Source: Parcubacteria group bacterium CG1_02_58_44
Lineage (GTDB): Bacteria; Patescibacteriota; Patescibacteriia; SG8-24
Direction of reading: 5' to 3'
DNA length: 37,958 nucleotides
Assembly: GCA_001872545.1 (NCBI GenBank)
Contig: MNWN01000008.1
Coordinates: forward strand, 1 to 37,958
A program made the translations under genes and the position numbers. The notes beneath the pieces are model-generated. The model was not told the DNA's origin. It searched no databases and was given only the letters and a program-made list of their open reading frames with translations. Shown here piece by piece: positions 8,962 through 18,392 of the stretch (positions are counted from its first letter, which is position 1; every line of letters begins with the position of its first letter).

Positions 8962-9010
8962 AGTTTCACCTTCTTAGATAGAGAGTGTCCAAAATCTTAC
9001 TTTCTGTCCA

Positions 9011-9390
9011 TGTCGTTCTGGAATCACGAAGGCAGTGAGCGGTATCCGGGATACGGAGGCCGATCGATCGCTGGATCCCGGATAGACCTCGCTCCGCTCG
9101 GCCTTCCGGGATGACAGAGGGAGTGTTGTCGCCCCGGCCCCCGAGCCGGGACCCAGAAAGCCCTCCTAGTCGCCCCGGACTTGATCCGGGGCCCAGAAGC
9201 AGACTTGCCGGCGCTGGATCCCGGATATTGCTCACCGCATTCGCAATTCCGGGATGACAAGTTAAGAAGGAGAGCGGTTCCGGGATGACAGAGGGAGTGT
9301 TGTCGCCCCGGCCGCCTTCTAAACCTACTGTCGTCCCGGCTGCCTTCTAAACTTACTGTCGTCCCGGGCCGAGACCCGGGACCCAGAAAC
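9011..9390. repeat. Cluster of dispersed CCCGG-type palindromic repeats
   Basis: Multiple units, e.g. GGATCCCGGATAGACCTCGCTCCGCTCGGCCTTCCGGGATGACA, CGCCCCGGACTTGATCCGGGGCCCAGAAG, GGATCCCGGATATTGCTCACCGCATTCGCAATTCCGGGATGACA, GTCGTCCCGGGCCGAGACCCGGGACCCAGAA. Confidence 0.85.
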
Positions 9391-9535: not shown

Positions 9536-9625
9536 GATATGACGTTTACAGCCCATTGTCAGAGGAATATACTGTAAGAAATTATTGTGTGCGGTAACGC
9601 ACTTCTATTTTTTCCGTCTGATGCA

Positions 9626-10234
9626 ATGAACGGTCGAATATTAAAAGAGAAGTTCCTGCTCTTCCGCATAAGGGCCAAGAAGGATTCCGAAGCGTTTGGC
9701 GAGATCTATGACTTTTACGTCAGTCGGGTCCACCGCTTCATTTACTTCAAGGTGCCCTCAACGGAGGTGGCCGAAGACCTGACGTCCGAGACATTTCTCA
9801 AGGCCTGGCGTTACCTGATGGAGAAGAGGGACGTACCCCATTTGCAGGCCCTCCTATACAGTGTGGCCCGCTCGGTGGTCATCGACTGGTACCGTTCGAC
9901 TGCCTGCGAGCGTTGCGATGTTTCGCTCGACGAGGCTATAGCGACTGAAGAGCCGGCCGACACAGTCAGTGAGCAGCTCGCCAAAGCGGTTGACTCCAAA
10001 CTGGACATGGTTCGCGTGGCCGAGCGGCTGCGTGGACTGAAGGACGACTACCGGGAGGTGGTGGTGATGAAGTATCTCGACGGCATGTCTAACCGCGAGA
10101 TCGCCTCCGCCCTCGACAAGTCAGTATCGCACGTGCGCGTCATGGCGCATCGGGCCGTTAAGGCCTTGGGTGAATCGTTTGACGGCAATGACACAGAACG
10201 CGACCAAAAAGCTGTTGCAGACAATAAAGGATGA
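9626..10234 (+). CDS. RNA polymerase sigma factor, sigma-70 family (ECF-like)
   Basis: FGEIYDFYVSRVHRFIYFKV, AEDLTSETFLKAWRYL (region 2), YREVVVMKYLDGMSNREIASALDKSVSHVRVMAHRAVKAL (region 4). Start chosen at MNGRILKEKF. Confidence 0.88.
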   Translation: MNGRILKEKFLLFRIRAKKDSEAFGEIYDFYVSRVHRFIYFKVPSTEVAEDLTSETFLKAWRYLMEKRDVPHLQALLYSVARSVVIDWYRSTACERCDVSLDEAIATEEPADTVSEQLAKAVDSKLDMVRVAERLRGLKDDYREVVVMKYLDGMSNREIASALDKSVSHVRVMAHRAVKALGESFDGNDTERDQKAVADNKG

Positions 10235-11348
10235 ACGGCGAGGTGGTGCCCCGCGCGAGGATTGGGTTACCCGCAACCGAGAGATCCTGCTGATGCAGGT
10301 CTCGAACACGACGGATGCGGATCGAAGACCCAAGACACTCGAGCAACTGCACCACCTTTTTGGTATCTTCATGCCGCTCGAGACTGCGACCATGGCGGTC
10401 AGGACTTTCGGCATCTTCCTCCTGGTGATCGGTACGGTGCTGGGCGGCGGACTGGCCTCGGCGCAGATGTATCACGGCGCCATGCCCGGCGAGATGCTTT
10501 ATGGGGTGAAGATGGCGGTCGAGCACGTGCAGTTGGCGCTGTCTCCGAACGACGAGTACAAGTTCGGCCTGGACGTCGAGTTCGCCGATCGTCGTATCGA
10601 TGAGATCGCCCGGCTGGCTGAATCATCGGACAGACATCAGGAATTATTGCCTGACGTTTTGGCGTCCTTTGAGCGCAGCGTGATCGCTCTGCGGGGAGGC
10701 CTCGAGAAATTGCAGGCCGACGATCCAGACGGTGCGGTCGAGTTGGCCAAGATGCTCGAGCGCAAGATGACCACCTATCAGGGTCTGCTCCAGAAGACGG
10801 CCGGTGTGCTGTCGCCCGAGAGACGTGTGGCGGTCAACGTTACTCGCAACAGTATCGACGACACGGCCATTGTAGCCATGTCCATCATCGTCCGCAGTCA
10901 CATCGATGGTGACGAGCGTGCCTCGCGCTCCGTGGTGGTCAGCAAGTTTGAGGATCGGATCAAGCAAGCCGAGCATAATCTCGACTCGGTAATCGCCGAC
11001 CAGGACATTTTCGAAGAGAAGTCGCCGGCCATCAGAGCCAAGACAGCCATTGCCGAAGCCAAACTTCTTATAGAGAAAGAAGATTACAAGGCTGCCTTGG
11101 GCAAGATCGTCGAGGTTGCTGAGCTGACCAAAGAGGCCGAGGAAGCTGTGATTCAGGATGAGGAAGCCGCAAGCAAAGAGACCGAAGAGATTGATGAGAG
11201 TCAGGATAGTGAAGATCAAAAGAATACGGAGGAATCCAAAGATTCCGCCGCGGATTCGAGTAACAACGATAAGAACGCGACATCTGCAGAACCGGCAGGG
11301 TCGGCCGACACAAAGTCGGACGACACTGTTGGGTCTGGCAGCCGTTAG
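10188..11348 (+). CDS. DUF5667-like single-TM membrane protein, possible anti-sigma/sensor partner
   Basis: Start MTQNATKKLLQ overlaps the sigma gene. TM FGIFLLVIGTVLGGGLASA followed by GEMLYGVKMAVEHVQLALSPNDEYKFGLDVEFADRRIDEI. Acidic, low-complexity C-terminus. Confidence 0.68.
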   Translation: MTQNATKKLLQTIKDERRGGAPREDWVTRNREILLMQVSNTTDADRRPKTLEQLHHLFGIFMPLETATMAVRTFGIFLLVIGTVLGGGLASAQMYHGAMPGEMLYGVKMAVEHVQLALSPNDEYKFGLDVEFADRRIDEIARLAESSDRHQELLPDVLASFERSVIALRGGLEKLQADDPDGAVELAKMLERKMTTYQGLLQKTAGVLSPERRVAVNVTRNSIDDTAIVAMSIIVRSHIDGDERASRSVVVSKFEDRIKQAEHNLDSVIADQDIFEEKSPAIRAKTAIAEAKLLIEKEDYKAALGKIVEVAELTKEAEEAVIQDEEAASKETEEIDESQDSEDQKNTEESKDSAADSSNNDKNATSAEPAGSADTKSDDTVGSGSR

Positions 11349-11439
11349 GACGGACTGTCGGTCGGGGAATCGTCCCGCGGTGAGCCTCCCTGCAAGGGCA
11401 GGCAGCCGGAGACGGTCCCGACGAACGGTCGCGAGACCT

Positions 11440-11573
11440 GTATATACGCTAACTAGCCGCAGGGCTGAAAGGTCGAGATTCGGTAACCCGAGTCGCACTC
11501 GGTAACCTAACCTTTCGCGCAAATTAAGTGCGAAGGTGAATAAAAAAAGGACCAAACGTTATGCACAACGTTT
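11440..11573 (+). promoter_or_regulatory. Structured 5' leader of the S-layer-like gene, with the start codon in a hairpin loop
   Basis: TGTATATAC -10-like element near 11440. Hairpins AGCC-GCAG-GGCT, CCGAG-TCGCA-CTCGG and TTCGCGC-AAATTAA-GTGCGAA. AAACGTT-ATGCAC-AACGTTT (11554-11573) carries the ATG in its loop. Confidence 0.5.
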
Positions 11574-14500
11574 TAAGAATGAGCAGGAAGGCGTTTACCG
11601 TTGCAGTGGTCGCTGCGACGATCGCCTGGTCTGTCGGATTAGCTGCCCTAGTTGCACCTTTAACGGTCAACGCAGCGGCTTCTGGCGACTTGGTGCGCGG
11701 TTCTCTGCCGGCGGTTTACTACGTCGGCGCGAACGGCAGACGCTATGTCTTCCCGAACGAGAAGACTTACAAGACCTGGTACTCGGATTTCTCGACTGTC
11801 CAAGTTGTGACAGACGCGGAACTGGCGGCTATGCCGATCGGCGGCAATGCCACCTATAAGCCGGGTGTCAAGATGGTTAAGATCCAGACCGATCCTAAGG
11901 TTTACGCGGTCGACGCCAACGGTACCCTTCGCTGGGTCCAGACCGAGGCGCTCGCCACGGAGCTTTACGGAGCTTCCTGGAACACCATGATCGAGGATGT
12001 ACCGGATGCCTTTTTCGTGAACTACACGATCGGCTCCGACATCGCCGCTGCCGCTGATTTTGTCGTCGCTGACGTCTCAGCCGCTGCTACCTCGATCAAT
12101 GTCGATAAGAACATCAGCGCCAGCTCGTCCGCGAGCCTGAGCGTTTGTGCCAGTTCTTCGATGCCAGTTGGTTCGACCCTGCCGAAGGGTGCAACCGGCG
12201 TCAATATGCTGAAGTTTGATGTGGTCAACGGCGGCGCCGATGCCATGACGGTCAATTCTTTGACTGTTCACCGCAGCGGAGCCGGTCAGACGGCCGACTT
12301 CTCCTACGTCTACCTCTATGACGGCAACGTCCGTCTGACGACCGGACGCACGGTGAACTCATCGACTGGCGACTCAGCCTTCAATGGTTTGAGCATCTCC
12401 GTCCCGGCCCACGGCACCAAGACCCTGTGGATCGCCGCCGACCTCGCTACTACAGCGAACTCCGGCAACGTTCACATGCTGTCTTTGACTGACCTGAAGT
12501 ACGGTACGACTTCGGTGAGCGGTCTGCCGGTCTCCGGCCCGCAGTTCACCATGTCGAACGCTTCGTCCGGAACCCTTACGATCACCAAGCAGGGCGCTGT
12601 CCCGCTGTCCAACGTGATGGCTGGCGGTCTCGAGCAGCTGATCGGTAAGTTCCAGGTCGCGGCCGGCACCGGTGAGGACGTTAGCCTCGAGCGCATCACC
12701 CTGTTCCAGGGCGGCGCGGTCAGCACGGCCAACATCACAAATCTTAAATTGAAGCAGGCCAGCACTACCGTGGCTACGGCTGCTGGTTATGACTCGAACG
12801 ACCGGGTGACCTTCGTCCTGGGAACTCCGTTCCTGCTGGAGAAGGGTGCCAATCGGACCTTCGACGTCTACGCCGACATCTCGGCCGGAGCCCGCACGGG
12901 TACCACCGAGACGATCTTGACCTATGTTGATTCCACCACGGACGTCATGGGCGTGGGCCAGACCTACGGCTATGGCGCCAACGTGGACATCGCTTCCTTT
13001 GGCACCTACGACGGCACCAGCTGTGCCCTCGGAGCCGGTAACTGTTCCAGCACTAGGATCGAAGGCAGCACTCTGACCATTACCTTTAATGGTCCGGCCG
13101 CCGCTGACGTCGCTGTTGCCGCCAACGATGTGGAGCTCTATAGCTTCACCATGGCTGCAGCTGCCAACCTGGAGGTTCGGAACCTGCGCATGGCGATCAC
13201 CGCCACGGATGGTGATGTCGGCGTGGACGTTAACGACCTGTACGACAGCACCGACGCGGAGAACAACTACAGCGACATCAAGCTGGTCAACGCCACCACC
13301 GGCGTGACCGTGGCCGGTCCGCTGTCCCTCTCTTACTCGGCTGCTGCGGACGACATCACTCAGACTCTGACCTTCACCGAGACCTTCACTCTGGCCGCCG
13401 GCTCGAGCGAGACCTACAAGGTGACAGCTGACGTTCGCAACAGTGCGGACAACGATGCCGACCGGGTCCAGATCAATCTGTCGGCCTTCCAGAGCAGCGA
13501 CATTCGTAATCTGGACAACAGCACCTACTTGTCGACGACTACCGACATCGTGCCGAACGCCGGCATCAACGGTAATCCGTTCACGGTGCATGCGCCGACC
13601 CTGACCATGGCTGCCGCTTCGAGCCCGGTCGCTCAGACCTACATCAAGGGCAGTAGCAACGTCGCTTTGGGCGGTTACACCTTTACGGCCAACGATGCGG
13701 CTGACATCTACGTCACCAGCATCGCGCTCACGGGTTACATCGACACCAACGACGAGTCCGGTACTTGTACCATCGCCGCTGATGGTGATGGCGGTCTCCA
13801 AGGTATGGAGGATGCTGCTTGTGCCAGCGTGGCCACAGTCGTCCTGACCGCCGGCCTCTGGAACGGAGATACCCAGGTGGGTACAACCAAGAGTCCGTCT
13901 GCATCTTCGGCAGTCAGTACTGGCGGTGTGTTGACCTTCAACAATCTCGGTCTGGTCATTCCGGCCGGCGAGTCGGTCAGTCTGACTCTGAAGGGTAACA
14001 TTTCTGGTGCTTTGGCTACGGCCACTCTGACCGATTTGATCAACTTCCGGATCGCAGCCACAACAGACGTTTCAGCCACCGACCTGAGCGGTAACTCGGT
14101 CACCAAGAGCGGTGTACCACAGGGTTCGACCATGACTGTAGCCGACAAGGGTAGCATCTCGGCCACCTTGGCTCCGGATGATTCCGATACCGAAGCCGGT
14201 ATCGTGGTCGCCAGCACTTCTAACGTGGTTCTGGGCAAGTACAAGTTCACCGCGCTGAACGAGGAACTCAAGGTGACTAAGGCTCGCTTCCACGTCAGCA
14301 CTTCGTCCGATGACTCCATTAGCTCCCTGACCCTGTATGACGGTTCGACCGTTGTCGGCGGTCCGGTGGCCATGCAGACTTCGGGTAATGTGGACTTCTC
14401 TGGCGTCAACTTCGTCATTCCGAAGGACAGCTCCAAGGTTCTGACCGTCAAGGCCAATCTGAACGCTGTGGGCACCGGTGCCGCCGCTTCGGGCAGCAAC

Positions 14501-15610
14501 CTAGCCTTGAGCCTGATGAACACTGCTTCGACCTTCGAGGCCCGCGGTACTGGGTCCGGATCGAGCACACTGATCTCGACGCTTACGTCCCAGGTGGACG
14601 GACGTGCCAAGATCATCCGCAAGTCCAAGCCGACCGTTTCTCTGATGGCTTTGCCTCAGACGGTCCTGACTTCCGGCGATCAGTCGATCATGAGGTTCAG
14701 CGTCGCGGCCGATGCGGCCGGCGACATCTCGTTCAAGAAGCTCACCTTCACTTCGAACGTGACTTCGAACGTGACCTTGGCTGTTACCTCCAACTCGTCG
14801 GTTCGCCGCGTCGGTGACGCCAGCAATCTGGCGGGTCTGGGTGTGGCCAGCGGTGCGGCCTGCTCTGCGGGTACGGCCGATGCCTGTACCATCACAGTTT
14901 ACCTGACCAATGAGGAGGTCATTTCGGCCGGTTCCAGCCGGACCTATGACCTACGCCTCACAGTCGGTGGTGCCTTGGCTGTCGGTGACAGCATCAGCTC
15001 CACGCTGAACGGCGAGTCGTCTGCCTCGGTCGTGACTGGCTTTATTGCCACACGAACGTCTGTATTCACTGTCGGGGGTACGGCTTTTGAAGCTGATGAC
15101 GTTTACACCATCACCAATATCGGAGCCGCACCTAAGGCGATTGACGGTGTCGGTGTCACGGCTGTCACCACGGCTAACGCCATCGTCGATGCCATCAATG
15201 CCGATGCGACCCTGTACTTCAGTGCGGTATCTACCGGTACGACCGGTGTGGTGTACATGTACCCCAAGTCAACTGCCACCTGGGCACAGGCGATGGCGAC
15301 GATTACGGTTGCTACCACCGATGTCGGTGGTGTTGCCGATAACCAGACGGTTTCTCCGGTCACGACTCCGGTGACGATGTACGAGATCGACACGGTCAAC
15401 GATGGTGCTTTGACCACTGACGTCTATACTGCCACCAGTGAGGACGCCGATTCGCACAGCTTTATCTGGAGTGACAACAGTGCTACTGCGCACAGCGATA
15501 CGGCCTTCTTCGTCGATACGTTGGCAGCCAGCATGACTGGTTCGCTAGACTTCACCAACGGCTCCTACGTCAAGATCCTGACCACCGACACTCAGACGAT
15601 GTCTAAGTAG
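11561..15610 (+). CDS. Large exported S-layer-like surface protein with tandem Ig-like domains
   Basis: 1349 aa with an N-terminal signal segment (RKAFTVAVVAATIAWSVGLAALVAPLTVNAAA). ~110-aa YYVGANGRRYVFPN... domain, then repeated beta-rich units (e.g. SNVVLGKYKFTALNEELKVTKARFHVS...LYDGSTVVGGP...FVIPKDSSKVLTVKANL). Ser/Thr/Ala/Asp-rich. Confidence 0.75.
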   Translation: MHNVLRMSRKAFTVAVVAATIAWSVGLAALVAPLTVNAAASGDLVRGSLPAVYYVGANGRRYVFPNEKTYKTWYSDFSTVQVVTDAELAAMPIGGNATYKPGVKMVKIQTDPKVYAVDANGTLRWVQTEALATELYGASWNTMIEDVPDAFFVNYTIGSDIAAAADFVVADVSAAATSINVDKNISASSSASLSVCASSSMPVGSTLPKGATGVNMLKFDVVNGGADAMTVNSLTVHRSGAGQTADFSYVYLYDGNVRLTTGRTVNSSTGDSAFNGLSISVPAHGTKTLWIAADLATTANSGNVHMLSLTDLKYGTTSVSGLPVSGPQFTMSNASSGTLTITKQGAVPLSNVMAGGLEQLIGKFQVAAGTGEDVSLERITLFQGGAVSTANITNLKLKQASTTVATAAGYDSNDRVTFVLGTPFLLEKGANRTFDVYADISAGARTGTTETILTYVDSTTDVMGVGQTYGYGANVDIASFGTYDGTSCALGAGNCSSTRIEGSTLTITFNGPAAADVAVAANDVELYSFTMAAAANLEVRNLRMAITATDGDVGVDVNDLYDSTDAENNYSDIKLVNATTGVTVAGPLSLSYSAAADDITQTLTFTETFTLAAGSSETYKVTADVRNSADNDADRVQINLSAFQSSDIRNLDNSTYLSTTTDIVPNAGINGNPFTVHAPTLTMAAASSPVAQTYIKGSSNVALGGYTFTANDAADIYVTSIALTGYIDTNDESGTCTIAADGDGGLQGMEDAACASVATVVLTAGLWNGDTQVGTTKSPSASSAVSTGGVLTFNNLGLVIPAGESVSLTLKGNISGALATATLTDLINFRIAATTDVSATDLSGNSVTKSGVPQGSTMTVADKGSISATLAPDDSDTEAGIVVASTSNVVLGKYKFTALNEELKVTKARFHVSTSSDDSISSLTLYDGSTVVGGPVAMQTSGNVDFSGVNFVIPKDSSKVLTVKANLNAVGTGAAASGSNLALSLMNTASTFEARGTGSGSSTLISTLTSQVDGRAKIIRKSKPTVSLMALPQTVLTSGDQSIMRFSVAADAAGDISFKKLTFTSNVTSNVTLAVTSNSSVRRVGDASNLAGLGVASGAACSAGTADACTITVYLTNEEVISAGSSRTYDLRLTVGGALAVGDSISSTLNGESSASVVTGFIATRTSVFTVGGTAFEADDVYTITNIGAAPKAIDGVGVTAVTTANAIVDAINADATLYFSAVSTGTTGVVYMYPKSTATWAQAMATITVATTDVGGVADNQTVSPVTTPVTMYEIDTVNDGALTTDVYTATSEDADSHSFIWSDNSATAHSDTAFFVDTLAASMTGSLDFTNGSYVKILTTDTQTMSK

Positions 15611-15640
15611 TCAGAGTCAGTCTCTAGCGATTTGAGGGTT

Positions 15641-16196
15641 TAGCGGCCCCCCGGGCATTCAAGGGCCGTCCTTACTCCGGTGCGGCGGTGGGGGAAACCT
15701 CGCCGCCCTCCGGAGGAACCGCGGAACCGATCGTGCACTAAAAGCACATCGCACTTCCGGCCAGACGACGAAACCGAACGGGCCTGTTCCTGACAGCCGG
15801 TTCGACCGGACCAACCGTGCCGCTGGACGAATCTCCGTCCGACGGGCCGCGCGTCCAACCGACCGAAAGCCGAAGCGCAGCCGTGTTTGCACCTACAGGA
15901 GGAAACACGGGTAGCGGCGGGGTTCGATCGCCTTCCGAGTAGGCCAATTATTTATGTGCCACCGGACTGGCGCCATTGGACGCCGCAGAAACTGTTGAGC
16001 CACTGGCGCTCTTCGGACACGCTGCATTTCGGCCCAGGTCGTGCGGACTTCGCGGACCTCGGCGAGACCGTCTAATGACATCGGATAGGTTCGGCCGACC
16101 GGTCCAGGGGACTGCCCCATGTCGGACGAAGCCGTCTCCTGTCCCGCTCATTTGCGAGACGGAAAAGACGTCCATCATTTTGATGGGCGTCTTTTT
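15641..16196 (+). ncRNA. Candidate structured RNA or structured 3' UTR downstream of the S-layer-like gene
   Basis: No convincing ORF. Stems include CGGCCC/GGGCCG (15644/15663), CTCCGG+GGCGGTGGGG-GAAA-CCTCGCCGCC+CCGGAG (15675-15715), CGGAA...CGAT.GTGC/GCAC.ATCG...TTCCG (15722-15759), CCGTGTTT/AAACACGG (15881/15903), GCGGCG[CCAAT[GTGCCA/TGGCGC]ATTGG]CGCCGC (15914-15986). Ends in an intrinsic terminator. Confidence 0.55.
16163..16196 (+). terminator. Strong intrinsic terminator
   Basis: AAAAGACGTCCATCA-TTT-TGATGGGCGTCTTTTT. Confidence 0.88.
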
Positions 16197-16255
16197 GTTG
16201 GGGATAAAAAGAGCGTCATTCCTCACTTAAAATCTGTCATCTCTCATTCAAAATT

Positions 16256-16530
16256 TGTCATCCCGGAATTGCGAATGCGGTGAGCAATATCCGGGATCCA
16301 CGATCCGATCTTTCTGCTTCTGGGCCCCGGATCAAGTCCGGGGCCACAAGGAGGGCTTTCTGGGCCCCGGGTCTCGGCCCGGGACGACATATATAGAGGG
16401 GGCCCGGGACGACACTCTTAATATGTCATCCCGGACTTGATCCGGGATCCAGAGCTATATCAAAAATTTATCATCTCTCATTCAAAATTTGTCATCCCGG
16501 AAGGCCGAGCGGAGCGAGGTCTATCCGGGA
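16256..16530. repeat. Dispersed palindromic repeat cluster, left of the GIY-YIG gene
   Basis: TTTGTCATCCCGGAATTGCGAATGCGGTGAGCAATATCCGGGATCC, GCCCCGGATCAAGTCCGGGGCC, GTCATCCCGGACTTGATCCGGGATCCAGA, GTCATCCCGGAAGGCCGAGCGGAGCGAGGTCTATCCGGGATCCAGA. Confidence 0.88.
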
Positions 16531-16584
16531 TCCAGAAGCTTGCAACGTCGTCATGGCCCTGCTAAGGATCGGCCATCAGTCTGT

Positions 16585-16881
16585 ATGGGAGAGAAACTCT
16601 ATTACGTCTACATTTTGGCCAGCCAGCGCAACGGCACGCTTTATGTTGGCGTAACTTCAAACTTGATTCGTCGCATTCATGAGCATAGGAGCAGTGTAAT
16701 AGCTGGATTCACCAGAGATTATCGAGTCAAAAAACTGGTCTGGTTCGAAAGCACTAATGACGTCCGTGAGGCTCTCGAATTGGAGAAACGACTGAAACGA
16801 TGGAAACGTAGGTGGAAATTGGAATTGATTGAGGCGAACAATCCAGAATGGAAAGACCTTTTTCAGGAGTGGAGCGCTTAG
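16585..16881 (+). CDS. Small GIY-YIG nuclease-domain protein (COG2827-type)
   Basis: MGEKLYYVYILASQRNGTLYVGVTSNLIRRIHEHR...VKKLVWFESTNDVREALELEKRLKRWKRRWKLELIEANNPEWKDL. Start moved to the internal Met because upstream codons are repeat sequence. Confidence 0.88.
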   Translation: MGEKLYYVYILASQRNGTLYVGVTSNLIRRIHEHRSSVIAGFTRDYRVKKLVWFESTNDVREALELEKRLKRWKRRWKLELIEANNPEWKDLFQEWSA

Positions 16882-16884
16882 TTT

Positions 16885-17060
16885 CTGCTTCTGGGTCCCG
16901 GCTCAGAGGCCGGGACGACATATATAGAGGGGGCCCGGGACGACACTCTTAATATGTCATCCCGGACTTGATCCGGGATCCACGATCCGATCTTTCTGCT
17001 TCTGGGTCCCGGGTCTCGGCCCGGGACGACATATATAGAGGGGGCCCGGGACGACAATCT
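16885..17060. repeat. Dispersed palindromic repeat cluster, right of the GIY-YIG gene
   Basis: Includes a 73-bp perfect copy (16910-16982) of 16379-16451 and a further partial copy at ~17019-17056 (CCGGGACGACATATATAGAGGGGGCCCGGGACGACA). Confidence 0.88.
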
Positions 17061-17132: not shown

Positions 17133-18392
17133 ATGAGAACAAAACTGATCGCCTTGGCCACCGTCCTGTCGCTGGTCCTGGGAGCCGCACCGGCCCTGGC
17201 CGACACGACGACAGACATCTCGACCTATCTGACCGATACCGAGTACGTCCTGGATGGCCAGACTATGATCGTCAAAGCCGGCTCCGCATACAACTGGATC
17301 TCGGTCAACGAAACCGAACTGGTGGCGCAGATACCGGACCACGAGGCCTTCGAGGTGCGGACCCCGGGCCTCTACCCGTCGTCGATCGAGAACGACGGCG
17401 GTGTGGCGGTCTGCAACGTGATCACCACCCGCGAAAACCGCGTCTTCGTCTACGGTCCGCGCACCGTGACTTTCCATCCGAGAGAAGACCGCTGCACGGT
17501 CGTTGCCTCTGCCTACAGCACCAACACCGCGCCGGAGATCGGTCTTTCCGCTCCAGTCGCCGGGGATATCCTGGTGCCCGGAACTGCGACTACCGTTTTT
17601 TGGTCCACCCTGTCCGGCCGCAATCCGAATGCCGTTCGTCTGCGCCTGTCGACCGACGGCGGCCGGAGCTTCGATACAGTCCTGGCCGACAATTTGGTCA
17701 ACAATGGCTTCTACGTTTGGAACATTCCGTCTGATCTGTCGGCCAGCGAGGCTCGACTTAAGCTGGACGGTTACGATTCCGGCTATATCGTGGCTCTGGC
17801 CGTGAGCGGACAGTTCTCCGTCGGCGAGGCAGCCGCCGAATCCGCTGAAGCCGCCGAATCCGAAGGTGCCTTGGTCTCAGACGACTCGACCGGCAGCCAG
17901 ACCTTGACCTACCTCGGCTACGAACCGATAGTCGCGACGTTCGCCGCGGCAACGATCAGCATCGATCATGGACTGACAGCCGCTGAAGGCCGGACTTCCT
18001 GCATTCCCAACACTCGCCTGAAGTCATTCTCTGATTCCGCCGTCTACTACTGTGGCGTCGACGGAAAGCGTTACGTCTTCCCCAACTTGGCCACTCACCG
18101 CACCTGGTATGACGACTTCGCCGGCGTGATCGAAGTGTCTGACGACCAGCTGGCTCGGGTTCAGCTCGGCGGCAACGTCACTTACCGTCCCGGCATCCGG
18201 CTGATCAAGATCCAGACCGATCCCAAGGTCTACGCGGTCGACGCCGGCGGCACGCTGCGCTGGATCGAGACCGAGGCTGTGGCTGCAGCGCTCTATGGAT
18301 CGAACTGGAATCAAAAGGTAGACGACGTCTCCGATGCTTTCTTCGTCAACTATACGGTCGGCGAGTCGATAGCGGCCGTGACCGCGTCATAA
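17133..18392 (+). CDS. Exported protein sharing a ~110-aa C-terminal domain with the S-layer-like protein
   Basis: Signal peptide MRTKLIALATVLSLVLGAAPALA. C-terminal YYCGVDGKRYVFPNLATHRTWYDDF...KIQTDPKVYAVDAGGTLRWIETEAVAAALYG...DAFFVNYTVGESI. Confidence 0.75.
   Translation: MRTKLIALATVLSLVLGAAPALADTTTDISTYLTDTEYVLDGQTMIVKAGSAYNWISVNETELVAQIPDHEAFEVRTPGLYPSSIENDGGVAVCNVITTRENRVFVYGPRTVTFHPREDRCTVVASAYSTNTAPEIGLSAPVAGDILVPGTATTVFWSTLSGRNPNAVRLRLSTDGGRSFDTVLADNLVNNGFYVWNIPSDLSASEARLKLDGYDSGYIVALAVSGQFSVGEAAAESAEAAESEGALVSDDSTGSQTLTYLGYEPIVATFAAATISIDHGLTAAEGRTSCIPNTRLKSFSDSAVYYCGVDGKRYVFPNLATHRTWYDDFAGVIEVSDDQLARVQLGGNVTYRPGIRLIKIQTDPKVYAVDAGGTLRWIETEAVAAALYGSNWNQKVDDVSDAFFVNYTVGESIAAVTAS

Follow-up and report, generated by a model that had tools for sequence, protein, structure and literature searches.

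Large structured non-coding RNAs of bacteria, among them OLE, GOLLD, ROOL and HEARO, extend over several hundred nucleotides and have an elaborate conserved fold. Long bacterial 3′ untranslated regions (3′ UTRs) with regulatory functions also have precedents (PMC3868564, PMC5502269): the long 3′ UTR of icaR in Staphylococcus aureus carries a UCCCCUG motif directed at the Shine-Dalgarno region, with RNase III involved (PMC3868564), and the regulatory 3′ UTRs of hmsT, hilD and ftnA have been reviewed (PMC5502269). Little has been learnt so far about post-transcriptional control in Patescibacteria, and our literature search found no paper joining Uhrbacteria and S-layer. Here we analysed a stretch of 37,958 nucleotides from Parcubacteria group bacterium CG1_02_58_44, an uncultivated member of Candidatus Uhrbacteria (henceforth referred to as ‘the window’; contig C41 of a genome of about 1.06 Mb), in which the gene for an S-layer-like surface protein is followed by an island that lacks a long ORF. 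Our best reading of this island is a lineage-specific, cis-acting 3′ UTR that would protect or regulate the S-layer mRNA.

Results

The gap after the S-layer-like gene contains only an 84-aa ORF starting with TTG and a 92-aa ORF starting with GTG, in agreement with the original prediction, made from the sequence alone, that no convincing ORF is present. The gene and the elements of the region downstream of it are listed below, where G000 is the genome of the window, G001 belongs to the same genus, G007 to another genus of the same family and G009 to a third genus.

11561 to 15610, plus strand: S-layer-like surface protein gene, 1349 aa (ORF calls; orthologues in the family and the class)
15611 to 16196, plus strand: the whole element, a putative structured 3′ UTR of 586 nt (fold z −8.0; pair conservation; synteny)
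15633 to 15674, plus strand: P1 hairpin (4 of 7 inner pairs changed on both sides in three genomes)
15675 to 15715, plus strand: P2, a two-part hairpin with a GAAA loop (the loop is CAAAATA in G007 and G009)
15722 to 15759, plus strand: P3 hairpin, with a conserved UAAA in its loop (fold and alignment)
15763 to 16137, plus strand: imperfect rod of ~375 nt (MFE helices; shorter in G007, absent in G009)
15882 to 15909, plus strand: side hairpin CCGTGTTT/AAACACGG near the rod tip (fold)
15917 to 15986, plus strand: apical arm of the rod, with an AU-rich loop UUAUUUAU and flanks GAGUNGGCC / GUGCCACCGGAC (fold and conservation)
15992 to 16016, plus strand: second side hairpin near the rod tip (predicted only)
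16139 to 16162, plus strand: P5 hairpin with a UCAUU loop (loop conserved in G000, G001, G004, G007 and G009)
16163 to 16196, plus strand: terminator-like hairpin with a U-rich 3′ arm (read from sequence and fold)

The computed fold places the two-part GAAA hairpin (15675-15715), the CCGTGTTT/AAACACGG stem (15881/15903) and the terminator (16163-16196) exactly where they had been proposed to lie, although a longer-range alternative competes with the CCGTGTTT/AAACACGG side hairpin in the consensus fold. The arm GCGGCG...CGCCGC was likewise located at 15914-15986, but the way in which it had been drawn, with nested CCAAT/ATTGG and GTGCCA/TGGCGC stems, reaches −19.0 kcal/mol against −36.3 kcal/mol for the preferred fold, in which GGCC pairs with the GUGCC side, the AU-rich loop is left open and the arrangement is compatible with the G007 homologue. 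The hairpins that had been itemized one by one do exist, yet the structure is larger than had been described: those in the middle are arms of a single rod of ~375 nt, the tip of which is predicted to consist of three arms. The rod apex (GAGUNGGCC - UUAUUUAU - GUGCCACCGGAC) is near-identical in G000, G001 and G007, whereas the rod otherwise differs for the most part in both sequence and length, and the conserved loop bases of the tail are unpaired in the prediction. The arms of the hairpin at 16163-16196 can be read as a terminator on either strand, and the consensus scan flagged it on the minus strand only.

The plus strand of the island folds with −273.5 kcal/mol compared to −225.6 ± 6.0 kcal/mol for dinucleotide shuffles (z −8.0; 0 of 100 shuffles). 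The homologue of the island in G001 is 84% identical over its full length, and we used it to assess whether base pairs are kept, by fixing the structure predicted from G000 only and redistributing the G001 differences among like letters. Under these conditions the G001 differences break 9 of the 203 G000 pairs, where 23.7 ± 2.9 are expected (0 of 2000 permutations), and the reverse comparison of G001 with G000 gave 15 broken pairs against 28.2 ± 3.1 (0 of 2000). The first three hairpins, P1-P3, pass the same test alone (1 of 1000 permutations), as does the rod (7 broken against 14.0 ± 2.2; 2 of 1000 permutations), while P5 and the terminator are almost invariant between the two genomes and so uninformative. 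An RNA on the opposite strand was rejected: the fold of the minus strand is weaker (z −4.9) and its pair breakage is close to chance (30 against 36.0 ± 3.3 and 15 against 18.8 ± 2.9, within about two SD).

In an alignment of P1-P3 from G000, G001 and G007 (fully alignable tail sequences number three, two of them from one genus), standard pairs occupy 93.6% of cells and 13 of the 43 pairs have changed on both sides, compared to 39-48% standard pairs and one to four both-sided changes when the partners were slid by one to three columns as a control. In the alignment of two sequences the compensatory count (5, against 4.9 in column shuffles) is uninformative, since the differences are mainly transitions, which yield G-U pairs; the consensus energy, with a z of −7.4, is informative. 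Overall, P1-P3 and the pair counts over the whole fold reveal pairs that are maintained by compensatory change, and the island is a structured RNA that is read on the plus strand.

The original prediction had proposed an Rfam scan, and Rfam 15 returned no match at the gathering score anywhere in the window; at a permissive threshold, the best sub-threshold match had 19.2 bits versus 45 for P33 (E 0.19). A divergent RNase P RNA or tmRNA was rejected, as the genome has its copies elsewhere (RNase P RNA on G000:C7 and tmRNA on G000:C20).

A decayed coding gene had been named at the outset as one of the findings that would speak against the proposal, along with a known Rfam family and a lack of conservation in close relatives. 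The substitutions relative to G001 are spread evenly over the three codon phases (28/30/29), with no periodicity, and indels are 1-3 nt long; a coding gene, intact or recently decayed, can therefore be dismissed. A mobile repeat or MITE was discarded as well, since the island occurs as a single copy in the genome and has no match in phages or plasmids, and the rod apex pattern is absent from viral contigs. That the island reflects gene decay, a mobile repeat or functionless folding driven by composition thus seems highly improbable: its G+C-richness and the REP-like repeats and GIY-YIG gene directly downstream speak for such an origin, but the dinucleotide-corrected z of −8.0, the short indels without codon periodicity, the single copy and the base pairs selectively kept on one strand largely refute it.

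The original prediction had suggested looking for the island downstream of homologous surface-protein genes, and relatives do carry it there. Sequence conservation of the tail starts just past the S-layer stop codon, and in G001, G007 and G009 the orthologous gene is followed by a tail at the equivalent position. In G007 it spans ~400 nt and comprises P1, P2, P3, a shorter rod, P5 and a terminator, and next comes a homologue of the protein that is encoded downstream in the window. By reading, the G009 tail has the P2 loop CAAAATA, a P3 loop with UAAAA and the P5 loop UCAUU, and no rod; the G004 tail has a P1-like hairpin and the P5 hairpin; and those of G002 and G005 have P1-like hairpins only. 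In all four of these genomes (G009, G004, G005 and G002) the P1-like hairpins directly follow the stop codon. More distant members of the class mostly have a short tail plus a terminator after the gene.

We also built a covariance model of P1-P3 (R1). In 381 genomes of the class and 380 of the phylum (overlapping samples) R1 was convincing only in G000, G001 and G007, and among 27 loci its best matches outside the training set were the orthologue tails of G009 (E 0.7) and G002 (E 1.0), which are weak by themselves, yet at the expected place. A search of the order with the P5 pattern recovered S-layer tails together with some other matches, most of them without a matching 3′ arm. The island is present as a single copy per genome and, in the class and phylum genome samples, was never seen away from the S-layer gene.

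These observations bear on the main rival to a cis-acting 3′ UTR, namely that processing of the S-layer mRNA releases a stable non-coding RNA from its 3′ end, or that such an RNA is transcribed from a promoter inside the ORF; the RNA would share the terminator of the mRNA and act in trans, with the conserved open loops serving as pairing seeds or protein sites. We regard this as possible, if doubtful. The large self-contained fold with its three hairpins, rod, P5 and own terminator would suit such an RNA, as would the near-invariance of the apex despite turnover of the rod, and sRNAs derived from 3′ UTRs are a known class (PMC5502269). However, in the genomes sampled the element never occurs apart from the S-layer gene, no target was identified, and a scan for consensus promoters over 15200-16300 gave no promoter-like match, which agrees with the earlier remark that the island has no obvious promoter of its own. 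The cis-acting 3′ UTR is the simplest reading because the element starts at the stop codon, lacks a promoter-like match, is single-copy and accompanies only this gene.

A more specific proposal, by analogy with icaR, is that the 5′ and 3′ parts of the message pair, the P5 loop GCUCAUU binding AAUGAGC in S-layer codons 6-8 and so blocking or masking initiation. The complementarity covers 7 bp in G000, 8 in G001 and 9 in G004, with the loop predicted to be open in all, and the P5-to-start duplex outperforms shuffled targets in G001 (9 of 500) and G004 (3 of 500). In contrast, shuffles did as well in 61 of 500 cases for G000 and 146 of 500 for G009, where only 6 bp are left, the target having lost one base without a compensating change in the loop. 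In addition, leader and tail share about as many complementary 7-mers as chance would give (17 versus 13.5), the target codons are under protein-level constraint, and G005 has the target but no P5. We hence treat the match between the P5 loop and codons 6-8 of its own mRNA as no more than a lead, and pairing with the start region appears improbable.

Several observations concern the surroundings of the S-layer gene. Its 5′ leader (11349-11560) is nearly identical between G000 and G001, and a leader core (GACCTGTATAT ... AAGGTCGAG) with a hairpin is found again ahead of the S-layer start in G002, G003, G005, G006 and G009. Rfam gave no match for this leader, which may serve as a promoter, as a leader RNA element that pairs GACC with GGUC, or in both ways. 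Further upstream, an ORF at 9587-10234 resembles, by reading only, an ECF-type sigma factor and is followed by a gene for a DUF5667 protein at 10170-11348; the two may form an operon that regulates the surface layer. Clusters of REP-like repeats (GTCATCCCGG...ATCCGGGATCC) lie on either side of the region (8990-9390 and 16230-17060), and the GIY-YIG ORF (16489-16881) sits amid them, after the terminator of the 3′ UTR and before the next gene. The latter (17133-18392) encodes a protein of 419 aa without a Pfam match, which shares a domain of ~150 aa (RYVFPN...GGNVTYRPG...KIQTDPKVYAV) with the N-terminus of the S-layer protein; the domain occurs in up to about a dozen copies per genome across the class and looks like an undescribed surface domain.

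Discussion

The structure on the plus strand, the position right after the orthologous gene and the loop sequences are all conserved. The ‘giant structured 3′ UTR’ of the original prediction fares well on this evidence: base pairs are kept, the element begins at the stop codon and has a terminator-like end, and relatives carry it in the same place. The predicted layout, from stop codon to terminator-like hairpin, and the synteny fit a long regulatory 3′ UTR, and we give a probability of roughly 0.5 to the reading that the island is the 3′ UTR of the S-layer mRNA, a folded tail acting in cis, which probably controls the lifetime or translation of the S-layer message.

The ideas of exonuclease protection and regulator docking rest on general knowledge of bacterial mRNA decay. 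Transcription of the S-layer gene would continue through P1-P3, the rod and P5 and stop at the terminator. The folded tail would then most likely shield the 3′ end of this presumably abundant message from 3′-to-5′ exonucleases, and the open loops (the AU-rich rod apex, UCAUU in P5 and UAAA in P3) would dock a protein or an RNA that modulates mRNA decay or translation. Simple protection of the 3′ end alone would need only a short terminator hairpin, as in the more distant relatives, and the elaborate rod with its conserved apex suggests a more specific role.

At its boldest, the tail would be a new lineage-specific RNA device, in which the rod presents the near-invariant AU-rich loop, the UCAUU loop contacts the mRNA’s own start region or a dedicated partner, or a processed form is a stable non-coding RNA, and S-layer output is self-controlled. 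We consider this unlikely; if true, it would amount to an RNA device for self-controlled S-layer output in a bacterium with a genome of about 1.06 Mb. The tail is in any case a specific, testable and evolution-backed RNA element on a cell-surface gene, and the cell surface is where such bacteria meet their surroundings and possible hosts. Tails of the same gene that range from <100 to about 590 nt also allow the growth and shrinkage of a large structured 3′ UTR to be addressed.

The S-layer tail resembles OLE, GOLLD, ROOL and HEARO in its length of several hundred nucleotides and its elaborate conserved fold, and differs from them in having no Rfam match at a useful score, a far narrower distribution and a tie to the 3′ end of one gene. 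With the icaR 3′ UTR it shares the form of a long tail of a single mRNA that is proposed to act on that mRNA, and a possible complementarity between loop and start; unlike in icaR, the only complement lies in codons 6-8 and is conserved in only some of the relatives, and the tail has a long rod and a much more elaborate fold. As in regulatory 3′ UTRs of the hmsT, hilD and ftnA type, the tail lies between stop codon and predicted terminator, and by analogy an effect on decay or translation would be expected. What sets it apart from long 3′ UTRs in general is that it is a lineage-specific, covarying, multi-domain element of ~590 nt that follows an S-layer gene in a Patescibacterium.
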